In this document: in pieces, positions 33,026 to 45,722 of the stretch
Layout of the letters: every line of letters starts with the position of its first letter
Position numbering within the stretch: position 1 is the stretch's first letter
From: Methanovulcanius yangii
GTDB taxonomy: Archaea; Halobacteriota; Methanomicrobia; Methanomicrobiales; Methanomicrobiaceae
Assembly: GCF_018687785.1 (NCBI RefSeq)
Contig: NZ_LTBL01000001.1
Location: 2,037,780 to 2,101,779, forward strand
Direction of reading: 5' to 3'
DNA: 64,000 nt
Made by a program: the position numbers and the translations under genes
The notes under the pieces: generated by a model
Told to the model about the DNA's origin: nothing
Databases searched by the model: none
The model's input: only the letters and a program-made list of their open reading frames with translations

Positions 33026-36000
33026 ATGGTGCAGCCGGATTTTACGAGTGCAGAACGAAAATATCAGGAACTTCGCCGCAAACGCAGGGCAGGGAAGATC
33101 GGCGCGGCAGTCTACCGTGATCAGGTGAACGGGCTGCGGGTGCAGGACGAGAACGGGGTATGGTGGCAGCCGGACCCGGACCGGGAGGGGTGGCTCGCAT
33201 GGAACGGGACGGCGTGGGCTCCCTCCGTCCCGCCTGCCCTTTCTGCGGTGGCGAAGACGGCGCCGGCAGCGAAGCCTGCCGCCCCCCCGAAGACGGGCAA
33301 GGCCACAAAGACACCCGCCTCGCCGCCTGCGTCGAAGACGCCGAAGACGCCGAAGACCTCCCCCCGCCCTGCGGCAACGAAAGCGCCGGCGGCGAAGGCT
33401 CCGGCGAAGAAGCGGTCGCAGCAGTTCTGGGACCGCTTCGCCATCATGGGCGGGGTCGTGGCGGCCATCATCTGGTTCCTCTACTCGAGCATCCGGGGGG
33501 TCACGGTCGAGGGCATCGACTGGATCACGCCGATCATCATGATCGGGATGCCGGTCATGCTCGCGAAGTACCGCAAGGAGATCGATATCCGGCTTCTCCC
33601 ACTCCAGCCCCACCGGCAGAAGCTCTCGAAGCCTGCGATCTTCGTCCTCGGCATCGCGGCCCCGATCGTGGTCGCCTTCGTCCTCTACAACATCCTCGGG
33701 ATCGAGGAGTACACGCTCCTGCACCTGAATCTTATCGTAGGGCCCCTTCTCGCCTACGCGATCATGCGCACGCCGGTGGTGGATGAGGATCAGATGATGC
33801 AGAAGAAGGGCAACCGGGGCGTCGTGGTGGGGGCGATTGTCCTCGCCTGCCTCCTCTTCGTGGTGCCCGCCGTGGCCCACGACTGCCTGGACGACCCGCT
33901 CAACGCGAACGACTGCCTGAGAACCGACGGGACCGCACAGGTGATCTCCGGCGGGGCGTCGCTCATCCTCACCGTACTCATCAACGGCCCGATCTTCCTG
34001 CAGGGTCTCTCCGGCGGCGGGACGGCCGTTGGAGGCAGCGGTGGCGGAGCGGGCCCCGGTGCCGGGAGCGGGGGAGAGGTCATCCCCGGCGCATGGCACC
34101 CGGACGGCACGCCGTGGACCGAGGAGGACGAACGTGCCCTCGAGGCCGACCGGCAGCGGTGGTACGACGAGCGTGCCGATGAATGGCAGTCCGATCTCGA
34201 CCGACGGCGGCAGGAGGAGGGACTGGTCTATGACGAGCGGACGGACTCATGGTTCAGGCCGCCGATCAAGGTGGACCGCATCGACCACACCGCCCTCACC
34301 CTGCGGGACGCGGACTTCGACCCCGCGGAAGCGTGGTCGGCGACGCAGGACGGCAATGTGCCCCATGCCTTCGATGTGGAGATCGGGGGCTCGAAGTTCC
34401 AGCTCGACGGCGGGATGCTCACGATCGACGGGAACTACGCCGAGCCGTTCTCGGACCTCATCGCCAACATCGACTCCTACAATATCGAAAAGCACCGCCT
34501 GCAGGCGCTCGACCGCCTCTACGACGACCAGCTGGACCAGTACCGCAATCTCGACCGGCTCCTCGACGATGCGAAGTCCGACCCCACGAAGGAGCACCTG
34601 ATCAAATATCTCGAGGACCAGCGAAGTAATCTCAAGCACAATATCGCCGACATCCAGATCGCCCGCGACAACTCGTCGCAGAACCTCCAGATACAGGCGG
34701 ACCGGATCGTCTCCCGCGGCGTGAAGGCGACCCTGGAAGTGGGCGGTTCGGTGGGCCTGGACGCGGGCATCGGGAAAAACGTCGCGGATGCCGGGCGGAT
34801 GGGCAACAACCTGATACAGAACTACGACCAGGGCAACCTCCCCGGCCAGCGGGGCACGTTTAGGATGGACGCCCCGGACGCGGACGGCGCCCGCCACGTG
34901 CGCCCGACGGGGGATGTCGGCGGCGGCACCCCGCGGCCGGACGTGGATGTGGACGTCCCTGCGGGCGGCGGTAGGCCGTCCGTCGACCTCGATGCGGGCG
35001 CAGGCGGCTCGCCGGACGCCCCGGAGGCGCCGGATGGCGGCGTGCGGCCCGAGGCGGAGGGTGGCACGAGACCCGGCGAGGGTGATACGGGACGTGCCGG
35101 GGACGCCGACGCCGGTCGGCCCGATGCAGGGACATCGCCGGATGCGGACGGTGGACGACCGGATATGGATGGTACCCGGCCGGATGCCGATGCAGACGCG
35201 GGCAGGCCCGCCGGGGATGCCGATGGCGGCGGCGAAGGACGGGGCGGTGCCCCCGAGACCGACCGTGCCGGGGGAGCACCGGATGCCGAGAGCCGTCCGG
35301 ATGCAGACGGTACCCGGCCCGACGCCGCGGCGGACTCCGATGCCGGGCGCCCGTCGGCGGACGCCCCCGCCCCCGACGAGGGGTCGCGGCCCCTCGACTG
35401 GGAGGACGGCCAGCGGGGCGGGACGAACGACCTGCACCCCGAGGGCACCGACGAGGCGGCCCACCGGCAGTGGCAGCAGAACGTGGAGAACGGGCGCAAA
35501 ACGACCCGCGAGATGATGGACGCCGTCGAGAGCGGGGACCAGACGCGGATGCGGGACGGCGCAAAGGACGTGATGCAGGACTACCAGTCGAGAAACATCA
35601 TCAAGGAGGCGCCGCCCGACGTCCAGCGGCCGATCGTCGAGCAGATCGACGCCGTCAACCGCGACATCGACAACCAGTGGGTGAAGAACATGAACGACAA
35701 CGGCGTCCGGTGGGAGAACCCCGACGGGACGACCCGGCCGGTGACGACCGACGATGTGATGGACTTCCGCGGCACCTCGGACGACCCGAAGATCAACATC
35801 GACCGCGACGTGGGCTGGGACTCCTCCCGCGGGCGGCCCGTCGACCCCGACGGCCGGGCGCTCACCCCCGAGCGGGGGCAGGAGCTCTACAACCAGGCGG
35901 CGCAGTCGCAGGGCGTCGATGCGGAGCGGGCGCTGCACACCGTCACCGGCCCCTCGGAGGGGTCCCTGCAGGTGGAGGCCTACCGCGTCCGCGACGGGAT

Positions 36001-36373
36001 GGACGTCCCCGAGTATCTGGACCCCGACACCGTGCGGACATGGGACGGGGCCGAGGCCCGCCACGCCGCCGATATCGAGAGCGTCAAGGCGTCCGATGCG
36101 GTGAACCGCCTCGGCGACGTCGACGGCACGCAGGAGGCCTGCCGCGGGACGGTGAAGGGCTTCGACCGCTACCGCCCGATCTACGAGGAGGGCGGGGCGG
36201 CCCTTACCCCCCGGCAGGAGGACGTGCTCACGGTCGCAAACGAGGTGGGCAGCGGCCGGATGTCGCCCGCCGAGGCCGACGCCCTCCTGCAGAGCAACCA
36301 CAACATCAGCCTGAACGACGGCCTCAAGGAGATCAACCAGCTCCACGAGGCGGCGGGGGTCCTGAAGAAGTGA
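33026..36373 (+). CDS. Large multidomain membrane protein of unknown function
   Basis: This 1115-residue protein starts with a short conserved-looking module (YQELRRKRRAGKIG, then GVWWQPDPDREGWLAWNG at about residue 48). A Pro, Ala and Lys rich stretch follows, then about five membrane helices at about residues 135-330. After them lies a Trp/Arg/Glu-rich helical region (about 355-560), a long low-complexity segment of Asp, Gly, Arg and Pro (repeats such as RPDADG, about 610-800), and a C-terminal helical domain (about 815-1115). No catalytic motif is recognised. The N-terminal module resembles Trp-rich modules of bacterial zinc-ribbon proteins, though this is from memory only. A zinc-ribbon gene follows 24 bases later. 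Confidence 0.8.
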   Translation: MVQPDFTSAERKYQELRRKRRAGKIGAAVYRDQVNGLRVQDENGVWWQPDPDREGWLAWNGTAWAPSVPPALSAVAKTAPAAKPAAPPKTGKATKTPASPPASKTPKTPKTSPRPAATKAPAAKAPAKKRSQQFWDRFAIMGGVVAAIIWFLYSSIRGVTVEGIDWITPIIMIGMPVMLAKYRKEIDIRLLPLQPHRQKLSKPAIFVLGIAAPIVVAFVLYNILGIEEYTLLHLNLIVGPLLAYAIMRTPVVDEDQMMQKKGNRGVVVGAIVLACLLFVVPAVAHDCLDDPLNANDCLRTDGTAQVISGGASLILTVLINGPIFLQGLSGGGTAVGGSGGGAGPGAGSGGEVIPGAWHPDGTPWTEEDERALEADRQRWYDERADEWQSDLDRRRQEEGLVYDERTDSWFRPPIKVDRIDHTALTLRDADFDPAEAWSATQDGNVPHAFDVEIGGSKFQLDGGMLTIDGNYAEPFSDLIANIDSYNIEKHRLQALDRLYDDQLDQYRNLDRLLDDAKSDPTKEHLIKYLEDQRSNLKHNIADIQIARDNSSQNLQIQADRIVSRGVKATLEVGGSVGLDAGIGKNVADAGRMGNNLIQNYDQGNLPGQRGTFRMDAPDADGARHVRPTGDVGGGTPRPDVDVDVPAGGGRPSVDLDAGAGGSPDAPEAPDGGVRPEAEGGTRPGEGDTGRAGDADAGRPDAGTSPDADGGRPDMDGTRPDADADAGRPAGDADGGGEGRGGAPETDRAGGAPDAESRPDADGTRPDAAADSDAGRPSADAPAPDEGSRPLDWEDGQRGGTNDLHPEGTDEAAHRQWQQNVENGRKTTREMMDAVESGDQTRMRDGAKDVMQDYQSRNIIKEAPPDVQRPIVEQIDAVNRDIDNQWVKNMNDNGVRWENPDGTTRPVTTDDVMDFRGTSDDPKINIDRDVGWDSSRGRPVDPDGRALTPERGQELYNQAAQSQGVDAERALHTVTGPSEGSLQVEAYRVRDGMDVPEYLDPDTVRTWDGAEARHAADIESVKASDAVNRLGDVDGTQEACRGTVKGFDRYRPIYEEGGAALTPRQEDVLTVANEVGSGRMSPAEADALLQSNHNISLNDGLKEINQLHEAAGVLKK

Positions 36374-36397: not shown

Positions 36398-37207
36398 ATG
36401 GCGTTTTGCCCGAACTGCGGGAAGAAGGTCGGAGAGGATGCCCGCTTCTGCGAGCGGTGCGGAACGAACCTTCTGACCGGCGGGACGGAGGAGGCGGCCG
36501 CGGCAGCACCGGCCCCCCCTGCGTCCCCATCGACGTCTCCGCCTCCTCCTCCGCCCCCGCCACCCCCGCCGCTGGGTGGTGCGGGTGGGGCCAAAGGTTC
36601 CGGACCCGGCACCGGGCGGAGGGATGCAGCGAAGATAACTCCGTCATCCTCTTTAGCCCCACCACCTCCTCCGCCACCCCCGGCTCCCCCGGCGGAGGCG
36701 CCATCCGCAGGGGCACCGCCAAAGGACGGCAAAAAAACGGGGATGACCCGGATGGCGGCGGGTATCGTCTTTGTGCTCCTGACGGTCATCTTCGCCGTCA
36801 TGGGAATGGGCGGCCTGCCGTCCTATGGTTCCGGGGATGGCACCGGTGCGGGGGGAGAGGCCACCTGGTCCCCCACCGCCGTCCCGACCACCGCGGCGGC
36901 CTCCGCGGCCACGCCCGCCCCGGTCCGCTCGGACCTCGCCCGTCTCGACGTCACGGCGAATGTCGACAGTTTCGAGGTGGAGCTTTTGGGCGGCAGCAGG
37001 GCGGATGATATCGTGGCAATCGAGATCGCGGTGAGCGACAACTACGGGCGCCATGTCGTCTCGTGGCAGTACCCGTTCATCGGGGAACGGTTCTATCTCC
37101 CGCTGGAGATGTACGGCGGCAGCCTCTACGGCACCCGGTATCTCCGCTGCGAGGCGGTGTTTGGAAACGGCGACCGCGAGGTCGTCTTTGCCCAGTATTA
37201 TACGTAA
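36398..37207 (+). CDS. Zinc-ribbon, single-helix membrane protein with C-terminal ectodomain
   Basis: The 269-residue protein has an N-terminal double-CxxC zinc ribbon (FCPNCGKKV and FCERCGTNL), a long polyproline and Gly/Ala-rich cytoplasmic stretch, a membrane helix near residues 120-145, a Thr/Ala/Pro linker and a 90-residue ectodomain. The ectodomain (GGSRADDIVAI, SWQYPFIGERFYL, MYGGS and CEAVFGNGDREVV) is clearly homologous to that of the gene at 43103-44506. Polyproline runs of eleven and eight residues are notable. It follows the 1115-residue protein by 24 bases and is probably in the same operon. Confidence 0.8.
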   Translation: MAFCPNCGKKVGEDARFCERCGTNLLTGGTEEAAAAAPAPPASPSTSPPPPPPPPPPPLGGAGGAKGSGPGTGRRDAAKITPSSSLAPPPPPPPPAPPAEAPSAGAPPKDGKKTGMTRMAAGIVFVLLTVIFAVMGMGGLPSYGSGDGTGAGGEATWSPTAVPTTAAASAATPAPVRSDLARLDVTANVDSFEVELLGGSRADDIVAIEIAVSDNYGRHVVSWQYPFIGERFYLPLEMYGGSLYGTRYLRCEAVFGNGDREVVFAQYYT

Positions 37208-37285
37208 GGATTATTCGTCGGGACTGCTCTTTTTCGCCGGTGAAAAGATGGGGGGTCACCCTCTGAATTATTTTTATGTCGTCAT

Positions 37286-37894
37286 TCAGGAGCAGCCGAA
37301 GATGTTGCCGCAGGAATCGGTGTAGAGGAAATATTCATCCGCCGCCATCGCGAGTGCCGCCAGAATCATCCCGGCGCCGATGGCAATCGCGACCGCGGAG
37401 ACGAAGTAGAGAAAGATGCTGACCCAGCTGAAGTTCACGAAGCCGATCTCGCCCTTGTTCATCCGGGTCGCCGTGTGGTAGGCGTCCCAGATGGTATAGA
37501 GGTAGACGACGCCTGCGAGGAGGATGAAGGGGTAGCCCGGCAGGGAGAGGAGCGTTATCCCGAGGTAGAGAAGCACTCCCTTCAGGAGGGCGCCGTTGTA
37601 GGTCTGGCCGAGGCCGGGGAAGAGGATCGAGGCGATGATGGCCATTGCGACGCTCTTTTTCGGGGCGCCTCCGGCAGGAGTGGCAGGGGCGGCTGCAGGG
37701 GACGGGGGAACGGTGTCCGCCGCCGGGGGAATTTCCGGTTCGGCAGGGGCAGGTGTAGGTGCCCCCCTGGCGGGCGGAGCGGCGGCCTGCGGCCCCGGTG
37801 CGGGCGTATCCTCGTCCCCGAGGGAATAGCCGCAGAAGGAACAGTACTGTGCGGATTCGTCATTGAGGGTCTTGCATGCCGGGCATTTTTTCAT
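37286..37894 (-). CDS. Zinc-ribbon membrane protein (DUF5683/TM2-like)
   Basis: The 202-residue protein opens with a zinc ribbon (CPACKTLNDESAQYCSFCGYS), continues with a Pro/Ala linker, and has four predicted membrane helices starting near residue 90. The helix hairpin with FPGLGQTYNGALLKG is typical of TM2 or DUF5683-type domains. It ends with two Cys residues near the C terminus (DSCGNIFGCS). It is transcribed towards the gene at 36398. The function is unknown. Confidence 0.72.
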   Translation of the reverse strand: MKKCPACKTLNDESAQYCSFCGYSLGDEDTPAPGPQAAAPPARGAPTPAPAEPEIPPAADTVPPSPAAAPATPAGGAPKKSVAMAIIASILFPGLGQTYNGALLKGVLLYLGITLLSLPGYPFILLAGVVYLYTIWDAYHTATRMNKGEIGFVNFSWVSIFLYFVSAVAIAIGAGMILAALAMAADEYFLYTDSCGNIFGCS

Positions 37895-38042
37895 CCGATG
37901 CCTCCTTGCCCGTACATCGGCACCCAGTCGTGAAATACTTTCTTAAGATGGGTTTGGGGGGGGGATGGGGGCTGGGAAGGCATGTTCCCGCAGCATTTTG
38001 ATACCTTTATTAGCCTCTCCAAGAAAAATCCCCTTACTGTTC

Positions 38043-39074
38043 ATGAACTTGAAATTTTGGGGTCTCGTTGGAGTCATGGTTGTTGTCGTGCTGGGTGCGG
38101 CATGTGTCGATATGCCGGGAGAGGGCGCCCCGCAGGTCGTCGTCTACACCTCGGTCGATCAGGTCTACGCCGCACCGGTGCTCGCGGCCTTCGAGGAGCA
38201 GTCCGGCATCGATGTACTCCCGGTCTACGACGTCGAGGCGACAAAGACGACCGGTCTCGTCCAGCGGCTCATCGCCGAAAAAGAGTACCCGCAGGCGGAT
38301 GTGTTCTGGAACGGCGAGGTGATGCAGACGGTGCTCCTGAAAGAAGATGGGGTCCTTGCCCCGTACTCCTCCCCAGCGGCGGCGGACATACCGGCAGGAT
38401 TCGTGGATGCCGACGGGTACTTCACCGGCACCTGCGGTCGTGCACGGGTCATCCTCGTCAATACCGACCGCCTTGCACCGAAGGAGTACCCCACCTCGGT
38501 GATGGACCTTGTGAACCCGGATTATGAGGCAGACGATATCGGTCTTGCCGTCCCGGTCTTCGGAACCACCTCGACCCACGCCGCCGCCCTCTATGCCGCC
38601 CTCGGCGAGGAGGACGCCCGGGCCTATTACGAAGAGGTGGCAGACCGGCACGTCCGCATCGTCGACGGAAACTCGGTCGTCCGCGACCTCGTCGCGGCAG
38701 GTGACCTCGCCTGGGGCATGACCGACACCGACGATGCCTCCCGTGCCGTGGAGGACGGCCTGCCGGTCGCAATCATCGTCCCCGACCAGGAGGAGGGCGG
38801 GCTCGGCACCCTCGTCATCCCCACCACGGTCGCCCTCGTTGCCGGGGGGCCGAACCCGTCGGAGGGGCAGGTCCTCTATGACTATCTCGTCTCGGCGCAG
38901 ACCGAACAGATGCTCGCGGATATCGGCTGGTGCCAGATTGGCGCCCGGAGCGGCACCGTATTTCCCGAAGGGGAGGGATTTTCCGGTGTCCGGTGCATGA
39001 ACGTGACGGCGGATGCCATCTATGGGAACCTGAGCACCTCACGGGCGGACTGCACTGCTCTCTTTATCCGGTAG
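38043..39074 (+). CDS. ABC transporter substrate-binding lipoprotein, iron(III)-type
   Basis: The 343-residue protein starts with a signal peptide and a lipobox-like GAAC motif. Its mature part is a class of periplasmic-binding fold related to FbpA and other iron(III) or thiamine-type binding proteins: VVVYTSVDQVYAAPVL at the N terminus, QADVFWNGEV and GRARVILVNT in the middle. Several Tyr and Asp residues typical of iron binding are present but cannot be assigned safely. The start is ATG 38043. The gene begins a four-gene operon with permease, ATPase and a beta-propeller. The substrate (iron or another anion-bound metal) is inferred. Confidence 0.88.
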   Translation: MNLKFWGLVGVMVVVVLGAACVDMPGEGAPQVVVYTSVDQVYAAPVLAAFEEQSGIDVLPVYDVEATKTTGLVQRLIAEKEYPQADVFWNGEVMQTVLLKEDGVLAPYSSPAAADIPAGFVDADGYFTGTCGRARVILVNTDRLAPKEYPTSVMDLVNPDYEADDIGLAVPVFGTTSTHAAALYAALGEEDARAYYEEVADRHVRIVDGNSVVRDLVAAGDLAWGMTDTDDASRAVEDGLPVAIIVPDQEEGGLGTLVIPTTVALVAGGPNPSEGQVLYDYLVSAQTEQMLADIGWCQIGARSGTVFPEGEGFSGVRCMNVTADAIYGNLSTSRADCTALFIR

Positions 39075-39083
39075 GGTGGTAGG

Positions 39084-40718
39084 GTGGCGATGAGCGGCGG
39101 TGGAACACGACGAACGACGGCCTTTGCCGGCAGGGTGCTACCGGCGGCTCTCGTCGGGATATTTCTTCTCGTTGCCTACGGGCCCCTCGCCGCCGTTGCG
39201 GCGGACGCCTGTGGCCTCCTCTCCGGTTCAGGCGCTGCCGCCCTTCTGGCCATTCCCACGGGGCGTCACCTCACCCTCTTCCTCCAGTCGCTCCTTCTCG
39301 CGGTGGCGGTGGCGGTGGCGGGGACCGCAACAGGGTGGTGTGCGGCAACGCTCTTCTGGCGCTGGACAGAGGGCCCGCTCTCCCTCCTGCGCTGGTCGTT
39401 TCTGGCCTTTGTCCTCGTGCCTCCCTATCTCTGGGCGCAGGCATGGCTTGGTCTGGCCCTCGTGGCGGGCGACGCCGTCGGGGTGACCGGCATCGCATTT
39501 ACGTGGGGATGGCTCTTCTCGTTCTGGGTCCAGTACGCCTCTCTCCTCCCTCTTGCAACCGGCATCTGCCTTGTCGGCCTCTGTATCACGGACACCTCCG
39601 CCATCGAGGCGGCACGCCTCTTTCTCGGGGACAGGAGGGCGCGTGCCAGGGTCGTCCTTCCCCTGACGGCACCGGCCGCCGGGGCGTCGGCTGCCCTCCT
39701 CTTCCTCCTCTCCATCACCGATTACAGCGTTCCGTCGCTCTTCTCGGTGAATGTCTATGCCCTTGAGATCTTTGCCGAGTATGCGGCCACCAACAGCGCC
39801 GGGCGGGCCTTCCTCCTCGCCTGTCCCCTGATGGCCGTCACGGTGGCGGTGATGTACCTCCTGCAGGGGCGGCTTCGCCGCCTCGTCCATGCCGCCGATC
39901 CCGGGGCACGCAGTCTTGCCATTCCCCTCACCTGCTCCCGGGCGTTTTCGGGAGTGCAATGGGTATCCTGCGTGATGCTCGCAGGACAGTGCGCCGTCCT
40001 CATGGTGATGCTTGCATTCGGATGGGTGGCAGGTTCGCATGCCGGGGGGTTTGCCGGGTTTGCCCTCCCCGCCATGACGACGAGTGTGCTTCTCTCGTGT
40101 GCGGCGGCTCTCTGTGCCCTTCCCCTTGCCTACCCCCTTGCAGCCCGGATGAACACGGATCGTACGGGGGTCTGGTGGCTGGTGGTGTTGGGCCCTCTCG
40201 CGGTGCCCGCGGCCCTCGTGGGCGTCGGAACGATCGGACTTGCATCGGGCGCCGCCGGGGTGCTCTACGGCACGTGGGTGCTTCCCATCGCAGCCCTCCT
40301 GGCACGGTTCGTCCCCGTCGCCGCACTTCTCCTTCTCGTCCAGCTCCGCCGCGTGCCCCCGCTCCTCTTCGAGGCGGCGTCGGTCTTCGAACCCGGCCCC
40401 ATGGACGGCTGGGTCCGTGTCAGGCTCTTCCTCCTCGGCCCCGGCATCATTGCCGCGGGGATGGTGGTCTTTGCGCTCTGTGCCGGGGAGCTGGGGGCGA
40501 CCCTTCTCCTTCTTCCCCCGGGGGCGGAGACCGTCACCGTCCTGATGTACAACTATCTCCATTACGGATCTTCGGGGGATGTGGCGGTGCTGGGGGCGTG
40601 CATGCTTCTTTTCATGCTCGGTGCCGGAGCGGTGGCCCTTGCCATGATGCGGGGGAAAAATGGGGGGCACCACCGTGGAACCTTCGGGTCATGCCTGCGG
40701 GGTGGTGTCCGTGATTGA
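39084..40718 (+). CDS. ABC transporter permease, FbpB-like
   Basis: The 544-residue permease has about 12 membrane helices in two homologous halves, the layout of the fused iron(III) permease family. An EAA-like loop is present in each half: one contains AIEAARLFLGDRRAR and the other LFEAASVFEPGPMDG. It starts at GTG 39084 (ATG 39090 is an alternative), ten bases after the binding-protein gene. The 3' end overlaps the ATPase gene. Confidence 0.88.
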   Translation: MAMSGGGTRRTTAFAGRVLPAALVGIFLLVAYGPLAAVAADACGLLSGSGAAALLAIPTGRHLTLFLQSLLLAVAVAVAGTATGWCAATLFWRWTEGPLSLLRWSFLAFVLVPPYLWAQAWLGLALVAGDAVGVTGIAFTWGWLFSFWVQYASLLPLATGICLVGLCITDTSAIEAARLFLGDRRARARVVLPLTAPAAGASAALLFLLSITDYSVPSLFSVNVYALEIFAEYAATNSAGRAFLLACPLMAVTVAVMYLLQGRLRRLVHAADPGARSLAIPLTCSRAFSGVQWVSCVMLAGQCAVLMVMLAFGWVAGSHAGGFAGFALPAMTTSVLLSCAAALCALPLAYPLAARMNTDRTGVWWLVVLGPLAVPAALVGVGTIGLASGAAGVLYGTWVLPIAALLARFVPVAALLLLVQLRRVPPLLFEAASVFEPGPMDGWVRVRLFLLGPGIIAAGMVVFALCAGELGATLLLLPPGAETVTVLMYNYLHYGSSGDVAVLGACMLLFMLGAGAVALAMMRGKNGGHHRGTFGSCLRGGVRD

Positions 40719-41409
40719 GTGCCGGGGGCTTGCAAAGGCATACGGCTGCGTCCCGGCGGTGAAGGATGTAACGGTGACCTTTGCCGGGGACGCCGTCATC
40801 ATGGGCCCGTCGGGGAGCGGCAAGAGCAGTCTTCTCCGTCTGATTGCAGGCCTCGAGATTCCCGATACGGGCACGGTGGCCATAGGCGGCACCGTCATGA
40901 GCACGCCGGAACGGGTGGTGCCGGCCGGTGACCGGGGCATCGCCGTGGCCTTCCAGTCCCCGGCCCTCTGGCCCCATATGACGGTGGAGGAGCACCTCAG
41001 GTTCGCCGCAGGCCCGTGCCCCGAAGGGAAGGAGGCCAGGATACGGGACCTCCTGGAAAGGAGCGGCCTCTCTTCCCTTGCGGGCCGGAGACCCGGGGAG
41101 ATCTCCGGAGGGGAGGCCCGCCGGGTCGCCCTCTGCCGGGCGCTCGTCGCCGCCCGGCCCGTCCTCCTCCTCGACGAGCCGGTCCAGAACCTCCCCGGGG
41201 AGATGCGGGATGCGATGATCGGACTCGTCCGGGACTACGCCCGCCGGGACGAAAGCCAGCTCATCTGGGTGACCCATGACGCGGCCGAGGCCCGGTGCGT
41301 CGGGGCCCCGGTCTGGCGGATGGAGGACGGCAGGCTTGCCGCCCCGCCGGAGAACCCCGGCGGTGGGCAGTACACCGATCCTGACGGTGACGGGGGTGGC
41401 GACCGATGA
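40711..41409 (+). CDS. ABC transporter ATP-binding protein
   Basis: The 232-residue protein has Walker A (GPSGSGKSS), Q-loop (FQSPALW), signature (ISGGEARRVALCRAL), Walker B (VLLLDEPVQNLPG) and an H-loop (WVTHDAAEA). The start is placed at GTG 40711, which overlaps the permease stop codon and has GGGTGG five bases before it. A longer frame from 40660 is within the permease gene. Compared with typical FbpC it lacks the C-terminal regulatory domain. It couples to the permease in the same operon. Confidence 0.92.
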   Translation: MIECRGLAKAYGCVPAVKDVTVTFAGDAVIMGPSGSGKSSLLRLIAGLEIPDTGTVAIGGTVMSTPERVVPAGDRGIAVAFQSPALWPHMTVEEHLRFAAGPCPEGKEARIRDLLERSGLSSLAGRRPGEISGGEARRVALCRALVAARPVLLLDEPVQNLPGEMRDAMIGLVRDYARRDESQLIWVTHDAAEARCVGAPVWRMEDGRLAAPPENPGGGQYTDPDGDGGGDR

Positions 41410-42449
41410 ACGATTCGTCCGCCGACCGTTCAGGGACACGGCTCTCTCCCCTCCTGCAGGGAGCGGTCGCGCTTGCCGGCGTCGTCATGGTGATCGCCCT
41501 CATCATCGCGGTTCCCCTCATCATCCAGGAAGAGACCCTCCCGGAGGGGATTGTAATCCTCCGCCCACCCTCGGAGGTCTCCGCCCTGTACATCGGGGCG
41601 GACGCGGTCTGGACCGGCGGGGCCGACGGCCTCCTCCTCTTCGACCGGGCGACCACGGCCTCTCTCCCCCTCCCGGCGGGAGCGCCGGTATTCGGGCACG
41701 TACGTGCCATCACGGGTACCGGTGACGGCGGCGTCTTGATCGCCCACGACCGCGGCATCGCCCGGTACGCAGGCGGCGTGTGGGACGCCTCGCCGGACGA
41801 CCCGCCGTTCGGGCGTGCACTCGCGCTCGCCGCCGCCCCCGACGGGAGCATCCTTGCCGGCACGGCGGACGGCATCTGGCGGCACGAAACGGAGGCATGG
41901 GTCCGGGAGGCGGACCTCGGTGCCTTCGGGCTGCAGGACTGCGAGGTGCTGATGATCGACAGCCGCGGGTGGATATGGGCCGGGTGTGCAGACCCGACGG
42001 CGGGCGGCATCCTCGTCCGCCGCGACGGTGCATGGGAGCGGGCCGGAGCGGCCTCCCTCCCCCACCCGGTGGTCCGCGGTCTTGTCGAGGACGCCTCCGG
42101 TGAGGTCTGGGCGGCGACCGGGTTTGCGAGCCGCGGCGGTGCGGCGGTCTTTGACGGGACGACGGTCGCCGCGACCTACACGACGGAGGACGGACTTGCC
42201 GGGGGTGCCACCCGGACCGTCTTCGAAGACAGCGGGGGACGGATGTGGGTCGCCTCCGAGTACGACGGCGTCGCCGTCCTGCGCCCGGACGGCAGCTGGC
42301 AGTACCTCGATCGCGGCTGCGGGGTCGCGGGGGACGAGGTGAAGGCCATCGTCGAGGATGCGGACGGCAGGCTCTGGATCGGAACGGATCTTGGCCTTAC
42401 CGTCGCGGACGGGTTCGACCGCTTTCCGGTCCGCACGGTACAGCCGTGA
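41406..42449 (+). CDS. Membrane-anchored beta-propeller protein of the ABC operon
   Basis: The 347-residue protein has one N-terminal membrane helix (about residues 18-40) and a large ectodomain of repeated Trp/Gly-containing blades (for example VWTGGADGLLLFDR, ILAGTADGIWRHE, MWVASEYDGVAVLR and LWIGTDLGLTVAD). This pattern matches the two-component regulator propeller type (Reg_prop), a ligand-binding or surface beta-propeller. It overlaps the ATPase gene by four bases (ATGA), so it is probably co-expressed with the transporter. The function is unknown; it may be a surface receptor for the imported substrate or a sensor. Unlike bacterial proteins with this domain, it has no kinase. Confidence 0.82.
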   Translation: MNDSSADRSGTRLSPLLQGAVALAGVVMVIALIIAVPLIIQEETLPEGIVILRPPSEVSALYIGADAVWTGGADGLLLFDRATTASLPLPAGAPVFGHVRAITGTGDGGVLIAHDRGIARYAGGVWDASPDDPPFGRALALAAAPDGSILAGTADGIWRHETEAWVREADLGAFGLQDCEVLMIDSRGWIWAGCADPTAGGILVRRDGAWERAGAASLPHPVVRGLVEDASGEVWAATGFASRGGAAVFDGTTVAATYTTEDGLAGGATRTVFEDSGGRMWVASEYDGVAVLRPDGSWQYLDRGCGVAGDEVKAIVEDADGRLWIGTDLGLTVADGFDRFPVRTVQP

Positions 42450-42511
42450 GGCCTACCCCTGGAAAAAACGAAAAAATTTGCGAATACGGGGCTACACGGC
42501 CCTGTCTCTTT

Positions 42512-42934
42512 TCAGGCCTGGTGGTCCAGCTCGTACCCCTTGACTTCGCCAACAAGCTCCGCTGCGATGGCTCCGCCAATGACGGACGGAATGAGATAGA
42601 AGAGGAAGATCTCGCCGATGACGACCGCGGGGGAGACTCCCTCGAGGAAAGCCGGGTCTTTGAGGGATATGACCATGACGGCGGTAACGGTGGAGACGAC
42701 CGCGACCACGCTTCCCATGATGACGCCGACCTTCCCGAACCGGCGGAACCGTCCCCACGAGACGAGCCGGTGGTAGTAGTTCGTGAGCTCCGAACTCCCG
42801 ATGAGACCTCCCACAAATGCGGTCCCCAGCGGATAGAGGACGGCGACTGCTCCGGGGTCTACTGGTCCGAAGAGGAGGAGGCCGAGGTTGAGCGAACAGG
42901 TCACGATGATGCCGAGGATGATACGTCCTGCCAT
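42512..42934 (-). CDS. Small integral membrane protein
   Basis: The 140-residue protein has four predicted membrane helices and a short polar loop (SSELTNYYHRLVSWGRFRRFGKVG). I do not recognise a family. The start ATG 42934 is chosen because a TATA-like box (TTATAAAT, 42966-42973) lies about 30-35 bases upstream. A longer frame to 43408 on the same strand overlaps the neighbouring gene and is rejected. Confidence 0.65.
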   Translation of the reverse strand: MAGRIILGIIVTCSLNLGLLLFGPVDPGAVAVLYPLGTAFVGGLIGSSELTNYYHRLVSWGRFRRFGKVGVIMGSVVAVVSTVTAVMVISLKDPAFLEGVSPAVVIGEIFLFYLIPSVIGGAIAAELVGEVKGYELDHQA

Positions 42935-43102
42935 GGGATTCCTTAAATGAACTGAATCGGCGGGATTTATAATGGTTTTTGAATTGTGTGGGGAGAGTGC
43001 CGGAAAAGTCTCCGGGCCATGCATGCTGTTTTCGTTCCGGTGGTCATGCCCGGGGCGGCACTTATTTAGGAACCCGGCAAGAGTATATGGGAGCTGGTTC
43101 TT

Positions 43103-44506
43103 ATGTTGTGTCCGAAATGCGGAACGGAGGTTCCGAACGGCTCGTTTTTCTGCGCCGAGTGCGGGGCGGACATCGTCCCTGCGGGCGACGGGGATGCGGT
43201 AGAGGATGCCTGCCGGACGGTCTTTGAGCAGGATGCGTCCCGGCGCGATGATGCCGAATGGTCCGTGGTTGCGGGTGGTGATGAAGGTTACGAGGGCGGC
43301 GAATACGACGGCAGGAGCGATACAGCCGACCTGAACCACGACATGCTGCAGGAGGCGGATGGTGGCGAGGCCACGGCGGCCGCGGAGGCCGACTGGTGGG
43401 AGGCCCACTTCGGCGGCGGAGCCGTGGTGGAAGAGGAGAGGCCGCCGTACGATGCAGACGAAAGCGACGCCCCGGCCTCCTTCCCGTGGGATGAACCGGG
43501 GACGAGTGCCGGCGAGGGGGGCAGGGAGCGCTTCCCCCCCGACGATGGAACGCAGGATGAGGCGTATGATGCACAGGCCGCCGGCGTCGGCGCCGACCCC
43601 GACGAAGAGGACGCGTGCGATGGGGACGCGGGGGACATGGAACCGGTGGAAGCGCGGGAGAGCGAACCGGCGGACAAGCCCCTCCCCGCGGCGGAGGATG
43701 CGGGGGACGAGTGGTTCGATGAGGACTCCTCTCTCTTCGGGAGGGAACCCGGCGGCGATGTGCCGGAGCGGGATGATACCGGGGAGTCCGGGGATACGCC
43801 GGAAACCGCGGATACGACGGAAGAGGATGGGGCCTCCCTCTTTGCACCCGCTTCAAAGGACGACGGGAGGATACGTATCCACGAAGGGGGAATGAAGGGC
43901 CCCCGCCGCCGGGTCCCGATGCCCTACGACCCGATGGACGACCTCCTCGCCGATTCCGAATCCCCGGCGCACGAGGAGACCGCGGCAGCCGGGCGGCCGG
44001 CCCGGAGGGAGACGGGGCCTGCCACACCGCTCCCCCTTCCCCTCATCGCCGGGGTGGCGGCGGTCATCATCGTCGTCATCGCGGCGCTTCTCCTCCTCGG
44101 GGGAGGCATCGGCGGCGGGGACGCCGGTCCCGTGACGACGGACCTCCCGGCAGAGGCGGCCGCCGCCGCGGAGGCGCCGACCGCACAGGAGACGCCTGCC
44201 GAAGGAGTTGCTGCCCCGATGCCCGCCTTTACGGGCTCCATCGTCCTCCTCGTGACCCCGACCTTCGACGGGTACGAGGCGGTCGTCACCGGCGGGTCGC
44301 GTATCGGGGACGTTGAGATGATCACGGTCACGGTGGAGGACAAGGCCGGCGTCCACACGCTGGACTGGTACTACCCGTACAGGGGCGAGTCGTTCGTCCT
44401 GATGCGGGGGATGTACGGCGGCGCCCCTTCACAGGTCGAGCGGGTGACGGCCGAGGCCGTCTTTACGACCGGGGAAAAAGAGCTGATATGGGATGAGGAG
44501 TACTGA
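43103..44506 (+). CDS. Zinc-ribbon membrane protein, paralog of the 36398 gene
   Basis: The 467-residue protein opens with a zinc ribbon (LCPKCGTEVPNGSFFCAECGAD), followed by about 280 residues of very acidic low-complexity sequence (many EDAGD, DDEP type runs). A basic patch (KGPRRRVPM) precedes a membrane helix near residues 310-335. An Ala-rich linker and a 90-residue ectodomain follow. The ectodomain (GGSRIGDVEMI, DWYYPYRGESFVL, MYGGA and EAVFTTGEKEL) matches that of the gene at 36398. The acidic cytoplasmic part has no homologue in that gene. The function is unknown. Confidence 0.8.
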   Translation: MLCPKCGTEVPNGSFFCAECGADIVPAGDGDAVEDACRTVFEQDASRRDDAEWSVVAGGDEGYEGGEYDGRSDTADLNHDMLQEADGGEATAAAEADWWEAHFGGGAVVEEERPPYDADESDAPASFPWDEPGTSAGEGGRERFPPDDGTQDEAYDAQAAGVGADPDEEDACDGDAGDMEPVEARESEPADKPLPAAEDAGDEWFDEDSSLFGREPGGDVPERDDTGESGDTPETADTTEEDGASLFAPASKDDGRIRIHEGGMKGPRRRVPMPYDPMDDLLADSESPAHEETAAAGRPARRETGPATPLPLPLIAGVAAVIIVVIAALLLLGGGIGGGDAGPVTTDLPAEAAAAAEAPTAQETPAEGVAAPMPAFTGSIVLLVTPTFDGYEAVVTGGSRIGDVEMITVTVEDKAGVHTLDWYYPYRGESFVLMRGMYGGAPSQVERVTAEAVFTTGEKELIWDEEY

Positions 44507-44529: not shown

Positions 44530-45018
44530 TCATGCTTTTTTGTACACGTCGACCGGGTCTATCTGGGCGTTGATCATCAGATCGAAGTCGATCGTATCGG
44601 GCCATCCCGCCCGGTTGAACATGTCCATGAAGCAGATGCCGACCACCTTTGCATCGTAGCCGCCGATCACGCCCTGCACCATCTCGGCGCTGACGGGTTC
44701 GTTCGGCATCGCAAGCCCGCCCATGATGACGACGACCTTCGGGTCGAGGGGCTCGGGGCCGTCGGCGGTCACCTGCATGCCCACATGCGGGACTTCCCGT
44801 ACGATCTTCGCCTTCTCCTCGTCCAGTCGCGGGACGAAGACGTAGGTGAACGGCAGGTCGCGGGCGGCGTAGCAGAGGAGTTCGACGAAGGGCGTGCAGG
44901 TGCCGGGGCACCCGTAGAAGACGACCTGATCGGTGTCCATGATCCCCGACTGCACCATGAACTTCTTGAACGGCCGAAGAATGCCGGCAAGACTCTTGTC
45001 TGATTCAACCAGTTCCAT
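44530..45018 (-). CDS. DUF2124 family protein of methanogens
   Basis: The 162-residue protein resembles DUF2124, a methanogen-specific family of unknown function. It has an alpha-beta fold with a Cys-rich loop (YGCPGTCTPFVELLCY) and the motif VVVIMGGLAMPN. The two Cys in CPGTC could bind a metal or cluster. No partner is in the immediate context. It is convergent with the zinc-ribbon gene. Confidence 0.75.
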   Translation of the reverse strand: MELVESDKSLAGILRPFKKFMVQSGIMDTDQVVFYGCPGTCTPFVELLCYAARDLPFTYVFVPRLDEEKAKIVREVPHVGMQVTADGPEPLDPKVVVIMGGLAMPNEPVSAEMVQGVIGGYDAKVVGICFMDMFNRAGWPDTIDFDLMINAQIDPVDVYKKA

Positions 45019-45107
45019 AGGGGAAAGTGCACGCCGTCGACCTTAAAAATTCCCTTTGGCCCTGAGAAAGGAGATCCATTTTATTTTTGGGGGGCCAATC
45101 TTCAACC

Positions 45108-45722
45108 GTGACGGGGGAGAAGGCTGGGCGCAGGCTCTTCGGGGGAGCAGACCCCGGGGTGGAGGGATTCACCGGTCTCGAGGCGTCGATCATCCTGATA
45201 GCCTTCGTCATGGTTGCCGCGATCTTTGCGTTTACGGTCCTCGGAAGCGGCTATTTTTCGACGCAGAAGGCGCAGAAGACCGTCTATACGGGGGTCGAGC
45301 AGTCCACCTCCGCCCTCACGGTCGTGGGGGATGTCTACGGCATCGGTGAGGTGCGAGGAGAGATGACGAGGGTCCGCGTCACACTTGGTACCGCCGCGGG
45401 GGGGGAAGGGGTCGATCTGGAACGACTTTCAGTCACAGTGAACACGGAGGACTGGGTGGCGACCCTGCGGCAGGCCGACCCCCTCTCCACGCCCACGGCG
45501 GCGCCGGGTGAGTGGTGTGTCTGTGCCAAGACCGGGGACCCGGCACCACCGCTCTTCCTCTCGGCGGGCGATCAGGCGACCCTCATCGTCGTCCTCCCCG
45601 CCGGCGCAGGACTCTCCGGCGGCGAGCGCCTGACGATCGAGATCCTCTCCCCGGTGGGTGCACCGGTGACGATATCCCGGACGATCCCGCCCCTCGTCTC
45701 CACGGTCACGATCCTGACCTGA
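45108..45722 (+). CDS. Archaellin-like / type IV pilin-like protein
   Basis: The product (about 204 residues) has a short basic leader ending in Gly, then FTGLEASIILIAFVMVAA, the conserved start of archaellins, and a GSGYFSTQKAQKT segment as in FlaB/ArlB. The prepilin peptidase site is after Gly20, and the mature protein starts with the hydrophobic assembly helix. The rest is a beta-rich domain. The start GTG 45108 sits about 26 bases after a T-rich TATA box (45078-45086) and may be leaderless. No other archaellum genes are in the window, so it could be an orphan archaellin or a related pilin. Confidence 0.88.
   Translation: MTGEKAGRRLFGGADPGVEGFTGLEASIILIAFVMVAAIFAFTVLGSGYFSTQKAQKTVYTGVEQSTSALTVVGDVYGIGEVRGEMTRVRVTLGTAAGGEGVDLERLSVTVNTEDWVATLRQADPLSTPTAAPGEWCVCAKTGDPAPPLFLSAGDQATLIVVLPAGAGLSGGERLTIEILSPVGAPVTISRTIPPLVSTVTILT

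Follow-up and report, generated by a model that had tools for sequence, protein, structure and literature searches.

Pilin-head-like ectodomains on zinc-ribbon membrane proteins of Methanovulcanius yangii

Results

The window analyzed here is a 64-kb stretch of contig NZ_LTBL01000001.1 of Methanovulcanius yangii, and all coordinates are positions within it unless stated otherwise. It holds two genes, P0001 and P0002, whose products share the same order of parts (Table 1). A preliminary description had proposed two open reading frames (ORFs) with a zinc ribbon, a low-complexity linker, a single membrane segment, and a common C-terminal domain of about 90 residues, and all of these features were found where it had placed them.

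Table 1. Features of P0001, P0002, and related genes (window positions; the last row gives a genome position)
Feature	Position	Strand	Basis or remark
P0001, 269-aa zinc-ribbon single-pass membrane protein	36398..37207	+	ORF, Pfam, hydropathy
P0001 zinc ribbon (C4, C7, C18, C21), PF13240 residues 3-25	36404..36472	+	
P0001 Pro/Ala-rich linker, predicted cytoplasmic	36473..36751	+	
P0001 transmembrane segment, residues 119-137	36752..36808	+	hydropathy and charge only
P0001 Ala/Thr/Pro-rich outer stalk, 41 residues	36809..36931	+	
P0001 pilin-head-like ectodomain, residues 179-269	36932..37204	+	BLASTP, alignment, profiles, AF2 model
P0002, 467-aa zinc-ribbon single-pass membrane protein	43103..44506	+	ORF, Pfam, hydropathy
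P0002 zinc ribbon (C3, C6, C17, C20), PF13240 residues 3-23	43109..43171	+	
P0002 acidic low-complexity linker, predicted cytoplasmic	43172..44041	+	
P0002 transmembrane segment, residues 314-332	44042..44098	+	hydropathy and charge only
P0002 Ala/Pro/Thr-rich outer stalk, 46 residues	44099..44236	+	
P0002 pilin-head-like ectodomain, residues 379-467	44237..44503	+	alignment, profiles, hhalign, AF2 model
DUF2124 gene, convergent neighbor of P0002	44530..45018	-	6/6 family genomes with P0002
Archaellin gene (PF01917), beyond DUF2124	45087..45722	+	also beside DUF2124 where P0002 is absent
L095, third zinc-ribbon protein of this genome	part searched G000:C1:1685421-1685825		relatives L096-L101

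The ribbon model PF13240 scored 34.8 bits in P0001, above its cut-off, and 24.5 bits against a cut-off of 25 in P0002 in the Pfam scan; in the genome search both proteins lay above the cut-off (38.6 and 29.1 bits). Pfam and NCBIfam annotation of the two genes is otherwise limited to this ribbon. The Pfam scan gave no match to either ectodomain, and we found no enzymatic domain in either protein and no clear operon partner. A 1,115-aa ORF ends 24 bases upstream of P0001. Proline makes up 30 of the 88 linker residues counted in P0001, and Asp/Glu 81 of the 283 counted in P0002. Both proteins contain a single hydrophobic segment preceded by more Lys/Arg than follow it. The four cysteines and the single segment recur in all seven proteins compared (P0001 and six members of the P0002 family), as do an outer stalk of 42 to 54 residues and the charge difference across the segment, with 2 to 5 Lys/Arg in the 15 residues that precede the segment and 0 or 1 after it. 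Hydropathy and charge thus suggest an N-in/C-out topology for P0001 and P0002.

The common C-terminal domains of the two proteins are 37% identical in the alignment, and a single BLASTP comparison of P0001 with P0002 gave 38% identity over 110 aa (E 1e-18). The motifs GGSR, W-x-YP-x-x-GE, MYGG, and EAVF, put forward earlier as conserved, all occur in both window proteins but are kept only in parts over the seven-row alignment: the invariant positions are the second G of GG, H, W-x-YP, E-x-F, Y-x-G, and the A preceding the final strands, and the Methanogenium rows do not retain GGSR, MYGG, or EAVF in those exact forms. Structure prediction, which had been recommended as a check, yielded a confident seven-stranded AlphaFold model for each ectodomain (AF2 pLDDT 88.1 and 89.9). 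Seven strands fit an Ig- or FN3-type sandwich, and VIA gave Z scores up to 8.9 against sandwich domains, in the middling range of the tool's own scale; both observations speak to fold resemblance only. Foldseek returned generic FN3 and other sandwiches for both models, with no pilin among the best 50 matches listed for either, and we gave this search no weight in either direction because many sandwiches rank equally.

The preliminary description had also suspected a likeness to archaeal pilin-like proteins and had recommended a profile search of archaeal genomes. That search retrieved pilin heads, and profiles run in both directions agreed. Over 199 genomes of the order, the domain profile (A1) recovered the seven zinc-ribbon places that it had been built from and, more weakly, 10 others, each an ORF with a pilin N-terminus. 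In the reverse direction, a profile of 16 pilin heads placed P0002 (E 0.0014) and P0001 (E 0.1) at ranks 1 and 2 of the 659 window ORFs, with the third match at E 6.4. Among the ORFs of 27 loci, it reached the Methanogenium orthologues with E values between 3.4e-6 and 9.9e-5. These 16 heads came from pilins recognized by their N-terminus: 31 Pilin_N loci supplied distinct ORFs shorter than 160 aa that carry the helix signature of short pilins. Longer pilins were excluded, as was L051, and the short subtype was picked after the first profile had matched it. Among 3,496 ORFs from the window and the loci, the pilin-head profile gave 45 matches at E up to 1: 32 pilins or pilin-like proteins (25 recognized by the stem pattern and 7 by reading), 12 zinc-ribbon proteins, all from the P0001, P0002, and L095 families, and one locus-truncated P0002. 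In the frames examined, a weak phylum-wide match, L057, encoded no pilin and no zinc-ribbon protein.

Profile-profile comparison (hhalign) aligned the zinc-ribbon heads with the pilin heads at 96.3% (score 51.1, 81 columns), against best scores of 13.4 for 100 column shuffles and 13.9 for the reversed control; other zinc-ribbon ectodomains and archaellin heads stayed below 3%. The two groups share the majority residue in 13 columns, among them GG, A-x-F-x-x-G, and a V close to the C-terminus. It is possible to suppose instead that an independent Ig/FN3 domain merely came to resemble pilin heads without common descent, and the sandwiches listed by Foldseek would fit this, yet the full-length match with its controls, the reciprocal ranking of P0002 and P0001, and the 13 shared columns make it very improbable. 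We conclude that the ectodomain and the Ig-like C-terminal head of Methanomicrobiales type IV pilins are homologous. Sequence comparison supports this strongly for the P0002 family; for P0001, the support comes mainly from the match to P0002. P0001 by itself is weak against pilin heads (E 0.1 among the 659 window ORFs, 0.55 among the 3,496). The archaeal pilin head is a known Ig-like sandwich, as described in the retrieved portion of PMC7347861, and the domain can thus be called undescribed only in the sense that Pfam does not match it.

The likeness to archaeal type IV pilins (PF07790), which extends over nearly the full head of the short Methanomicrobiales subtype, ends at the head. The PF07790 model (Pilin_N), whose 78 positions cover the pilin N-terminus, has no match in P0001 or P0002 at E up to 1; a zinc ribbon stands at the N-terminus, followed by linker, membrane segment, and stalk. 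The zinc-ribbon heads moreover carry extra conserved residues (H, W-x-YP, E-x-F, Y-x-G), and the positions invariant only in them lie mostly within a stretch that is variable in pilins. Searched against solved structures, the domain profile gave one match up to E 10 (E 0.65, taken as chance), whereas whole pilins match solved pilins in the sequence search; solved archaeal pilin heads include 8fj5, 9myg, and 8gi2.

L095, encoded in the same genome, is a third zinc-ribbon protein and probably has a pilin-like head as well, judging from its family profile. Like P0001 and P0002, the L095 family combines one or more ribbons, one hydrophobic segment, and an ectodomain matching pilin heads; unlike the P0002 family, it has a short linker and other conserved residues. 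The profile-profile match to pilin heads, at 86.5% one way and 77.2% the other (score 34.6, compared with 15.7 for the best of 100 shuffles), is the sole clear support for this head. As a single sequence, L095 reached E 7 with the pilin-head profile; members of its family reached just E 0.057 to 0.96 among the 3,496 ORFs, the member from this genome not being among them. Against the P0002 family the match was weak (5.9% and 21.5%, the first direction beaten by 1 of 100 shuffles), and a profile of L095-L100, which left out L101, failed to single out either P0001 or P0002 from the ORFs of the window. Three other matches in the L095-family search (L102-L104) look unrelated.

An archaellin origin of the domain found no profile support. 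PF01917 has no match in P0001 or P0002 at E up to 1, and hhalign placed the ectodomain at 0.9 to 3.0% against eight local archaellin heads; the test is blind to a remote relation, as pilin heads reached only 0.3 to 0.5% against the same heads, although the retrieved text of PMC7347861 assigns archaellin and pilin heads a shared fold.

The layout itself has parallels. Staphylococcus aureus TcaA is predicted to have a zinc finger inside, one membrane span, and its bulk outside (PMC10328498, in the portion retrieved); P0001 matches the TcaA model NF053815 by its ribbon only (residues 1-28, 12.7 bits where the cut-off is 550), and P0002 does not match this NCBIfam model at E up to 1. Within the family, nine proteins (L122, L123, L128, L130, L138, L140, L141, L151, and L157), and also L163, have the same ribbon, linker, single hydrophobic segment, and C-terminal ectodomain, but unlike P0001 and P0002 their ectodomains do not match the pilin-head profiles; a profile of the nine gave 0.3 to 1.3% against both head groups. 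A census of zinc ribbons over the 28 family genomes gave 112 matches, of which 72 regions were examined after exclusion of second ribbons of one ORF, the own genome and known families, and most frames up to about 110 aa. A ribbon ORF was obtained by pattern from 71 of the 72 (frames were chosen automatically, and certain ORFs may be truncated); against four profiles their best E was 0.21, and no pilin head was seen.

P0002 orthologues are present in 6 of the 28 family genomes (Methanoculleus and Methanogenium), a culturable relative with P0002 being Methanogenium marinum DSM 15558 (L027), and P0001 was found in the Methanovulcanius yangii genome only, in searches that included the 199 genomes of the order. 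Pilin_N genes occur in 26 of the 28, and pilin heads were matched by profile in other families too. Pilins with such heads are widespread within the order and also occur outside it, but the zinc-ribbon form was found only in Methanoculleus and Methanogenium; the line of these two genera therefore probably acquired the head from pilins. A scan of viral contigs with P0002 found no relative. Literature searches combining zinc ribbon with pilin (Methanoculleus; archaea, ectodomain) found no report. Other listings brought up papers on Caulobacter Tad pili and, among 10 of 23 entries, one with the term zinc ribbon (PMC5847659). The retrieved part of PMC4858521 mentions a Zn finger twice, both times for TFIIB homologues, and does not use the word "zinc," and the text of PMC5898192 contains no ribbon or pilin term.

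Discussion

We lean toward the view that P0001 and P0002 are membrane-tethered, non-polymerizing pilin heads that act as transmembrane adaptors or sensors rather than as pilus subunits. The stalk, single membrane segment, and zinc ribbon take the place of the pilin N-terminal signal and assembly helix; lacking that stem, the proteins would be neither processed by prepilin peptidase nor polymerized and would therefore stay in the membrane with the head outside. There, the patch formed by H, W-x-YP, E-x-F, and Y-x-G, conserved here and not in pilins, may bind a surface partner such as the S-layer, a pilus, or another ligand, while the ribbon and linker may recruit a protein inside. The role in signaling or trafficking suggested earlier would be compatible with this topology. 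Against this view stand the absence of an enzymatic domain and of a clear operon partner, the location of the genome's two Pilin_N matches far from both genes, and the occurrence of the DUF2124-archaellin pair without P0002.

Another reading, which we regard as rather unlikely, is that these proteins are accessories of the pilus or archaellum whose tethered head, docked onto the heads of pilins or archaellins at the base of the filament, serves as a stator, cap, or assembly checkpoint. The single-pass proteins ArlF and ArlG are thought to work in a comparable way. The homology to pilin heads is in keeping with such docking, as are the Pilin_N matches (E up to 1e-6) in five of the six genomes with P0002, all but G107, and the archaellin gene that lies within about 1 kb on the far side of DUF2124 at five of the six P0002 loci. 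The archaellin is missing near P0002 in G079, however, and DUF2124 and archaellin are also adjacent in at least five loci without P0002; because the pair exists without P0002, we dropped this synteny as functional evidence. Further against an accessory role, profile comparison gives no match between archaellin heads and the domain, and the genome's best PF01917 matches elsewhere lie at 502-504 kb and its two Pilin_N matches at 591 kb, about 1.5 Mb from P0001 and P0002.

It is also conceivable, though unlikely, that the pilin scaffold was merely kept as a general Ig-like binding module that binds a ligand of an unrelated kind or ties the membrane to S-layer or glycans, with the ribbon as a structural tail without signaling. 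The tail does look like a generic anchor because unrelated ectodomains ride on the same ribbon-linker-segment type in other family genomes, and the residues conserved uniquely in these heads may form a new binding surface. Yet the six P0002-family proteins all retain the four cysteines as well as a long linker in which acidic residues outnumber basic ones, and this conservation suggests some function for the part inside the cell.

What is new here is the arrangement of parts already known; the head itself is not new. The archaeal pilin head is seen detached from the pilus stem and placed on another membrane anchor, and two genes otherwise annotated by their ribbon alone are now explained. More speculatively, and we hold this to be doubtful, the up to three zinc-ribbon proteins of this genome could be receptors whose tethered heads recognize the cell's own pilins or pili, or pili-binding agents (viruses, for example), and signal the state of the pili to the cytoplasm as a dedicated archaeal pilus-sensing system. 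Proteins of this kind are concrete candidates for possible sensors or regulators of methanogen pili.

Results

The layout proposed in the preliminary description for the two zinc-ribbon membrane proteins, P0001 and P0002, was borne out for both genes. In each, an N-terminal zinc ribbon (found by Pfam) is followed by an inner linker of low complexity, rich in Pro in P0001 and acidic in P0002, then by a single hydrophobic segment preceded by positive charges, and a common C-terminal domain (38% over 110 amino acids, E = 1e-18, BLASTP of the pair). All seven proteins compared (P0001, P0002, and the P0002 orthologues L003-L007) have four cysteines and one hydrophobic segment, two to five K/R in the 15 residues before that segment and zero or one after it, and a P/S/T/A-rich outer stalk of 42 to 54 residues. 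Outside the ribbon, Pfam and NCBIfam gave no credible match in either protein, and Pilin_N (PF07790, archaeal pilin N terminus) was absent from both at E up to 1.

Positions of the features discussed, in window coordinates
Feature	Position	Strand	Description
1115-aa ORF	33026-36373	+	hydrophobic segments, Asp/Gly-rich region
P0001	36398-37207		zinc-ribbon membrane protein
Intervening gene	37286-37894	-	zinc-ribbon membrane protein, weak DUF5683 match
P0002	43103-44506		zinc-ribbon membrane protein
DUF2124 and archaellin genes	44530-45722		recurrent divergent pair

A further ribbon gene lies between P0001 and P0002, making three ribbon membrane genes within about 8 kb. The 1115-amino-acid ORF, for which Pfam showed nothing at E up to 0.01, stops 24 bases upstream of P0001, and the two may share one transcript.

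Searched at E up to 10 with the P0002 domain alone, the 2.29-Mb genome that contains the window (at G000:C1:2037780-2101779) gave only the P0001 and P0002 places. Across the order Methanomicrobiales, the same single query found seven places in 6 of 199 genomes, all zinc-ribbon proteins. A profile built from these seven rows (A1) matched 17 places in 13 of the 199 genomes, namely its own rows and a further 10 with weaker scores (E from 7.6e-7 to 0.0095). Each of these 10 ORFs opens with a pilin stem (for example, [25 protein letters not shown]), the match falling in the C-terminal head; among them is a pilin at 591 kb of the same genome, found independently by Pilin_N. In 392 genomes of the phylum, seven of eight weaker places were pilins (L058-L060 being new), and the eighth, L057, was not.

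The reciprocal profile was made from 16 distinct short-subtype heads, extracted from pilins found with PF07790, which models their N-terminal part; longer pilins were excluded. Among the 659 window ORFs of at least 50 amino acids, P0002 ranked first (E = 0.0014), P0001 second (E = 0.1), and the next ORF had an E value of 6.4. Profile-profile alignment of A1 with the 16 heads gave 96.3% and a score of 51.1 over 81 columns (domain columns 4 to 88), against 13.4 for the best of 100 column-shuffled profiles and 13.9 for the reversed profile. Ectodomains from nine other zinc-ribbon membrane proteins gave no profile match (under 3%). Neither did eight local archaellin heads (under 3%), a control of specificity by sequence only, as the pilin heads did not match archaellin heads here either; archaellin and pilin heads have a common fold in solved structures, according to PMC7347861.

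A wider set, pilin-enriched through its collection, comprised 3,496 distinct ORFs drawn from the window together with all loci; at E up to 1, the pilin-head profile matched 45 of them. Of these, 32 are pilins or pilin-like (25 recognized by stem pattern and 7 by reading) and 12 are zinc-ribbon proteins, namely P0001, 6 members of the P0002 family, and 5 of the L095 family described below; the last is a truncated P0002 copy. P0001 was weak here (E = 0.55), and its assignment as a pilin head is made mainly because of its match to P0002.

When the 7 zinc-ribbon heads and the 16 pilin heads were aligned together, both groups shared their majority residue (in at least 5 of 7 and at least 9 of 16 sequences, respectively) at 13 columns, among them the GG in strand two and the A-x-F-x-x-G...V in the last strands. 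At mid-domain, H, the W and Y of W-x-YP, and E, F, Y, and G are present in 7/7 zinc-ribbon heads, whereas none of these residues is in the majority in pilins.

AlphaFold2 models, built from five sequences, have seven predicted strands in both domains (pLDDT 88.1 and 89.9; pTM 0.78 and 0.80). Among the matches listed by Foldseek and VIA were FN3 domains and sandwiches of similar type, with Z up to 8.9, and no pilin. Archaeal pilin heads are described as an Ig-like sandwich in PMC7347861; the predicted fold agrees with this, which alone is no proof of relation.

Discussion

The searches in both directions demonstrate homology of the heads to pilin heads, the domain order is likewise shown, and we regard the two-protein finding as real. 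The preliminary guess of a resemblance to archaeal pilin-like proteins was right. Its term "undescribed" holds only insofar as no Pfam family matches the ectodomain, but the domain was already known, as the pilin head; the ectodomain is a known domain in a new setting. The literature searches, which covered listings and passages of PMC4858521 and PMC5898192, yielded no report of this combination.

A third single-pass zinc-ribbon protein of the genome, L095 (G000:C1:1685421-1685825), has relatives (L096-L101) in the same-genus genome G095, the nearest relative searched, and in five genomes of genus g6. Profile-profile comparison of the L095 ectodomain with pilin heads gave 86.5%, at a score of 34.6 against 15.7 for the top one among 100 shuffles, and 77.2% with the direction reversed. 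Its match to the P0002 family was weak (5.9%, where 1 of 100 shuffles scored higher, and 21.5%). Single-sequence tests of L095 against pilin heads gave no significance. This pattern suggests that pilin heads were captured either twice or once, long ago, with later divergence.

P0001 was found in its own genome only (the G095 assembly is 82% complete). Of the 28 family genomes, 6 carry a P0002 orthologue (its own, G095, G037, G075, G079, and G107), always tail to tail with DUF2124, and in all but G079 an archaellin gene lies on the far side. This neighborhood would fit one main rival reading, in which these would be accessory proteins at the pilus or archaellum base. Archaellin also adjoins DUF2124, however, in at least five loci without P0002 (L062, L063, L066, L073, and L080); the neighborhood therefore gives no tie of P0002 to motility, and we dropped that connection. 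The divergent DUF2124-archaellin pair recurs across the family whether P0002 is present or absent. The strongest other archaellin (PF01917) matches of the genome are at 502 to 504 kb, far from the window. Separately, large pilin expansions are seen in genera g4 and g7 (at E up to 1e-6, 50 Pilin_N matches in G013, 49 in G060, and 44 in G043, whereas the window genome has 2).

The ribbon PF13240 has 112 matches in the 28 family genomes. A ribbon ORF was recovered in 71 of 72 regions fetched from these matches, and none of the 71 carries the pilin head (best E, 0.21). Several have the same order of ribbon, linker, membrane segment, and ectodomain with different ectodomains; the tail thus resembles an anchor that can be reused, the pilin head being one of several heads. 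Another ectodomain type occurs on such proteins at nine loci (L122, L123, L128, L130, L138, L140, L141, L151, and L157), many with a W-x-G-x-Y/F-x-x-N-G-like pattern and none matching the pilin-head profile. Staphylococcus aureus TcaA has the same predicted layout, according to PMC10328498, but beyond the ribbon no sequence relation to P0001 or P0002. A plain surface-binding or anchoring role is the other main rival.

We favor an adaptor or sensor. From the charge bias, the head would be outside and the ribbon inside, and because the pilin stem is missing, P0001 and P0002 are probably not filament subunits. The conserved extra patch of the head may bind a surface partner, and the ribbon and linker a cytoplasmic one; P0001 and P0002 would thereby serve as putative adaptors or sensors.
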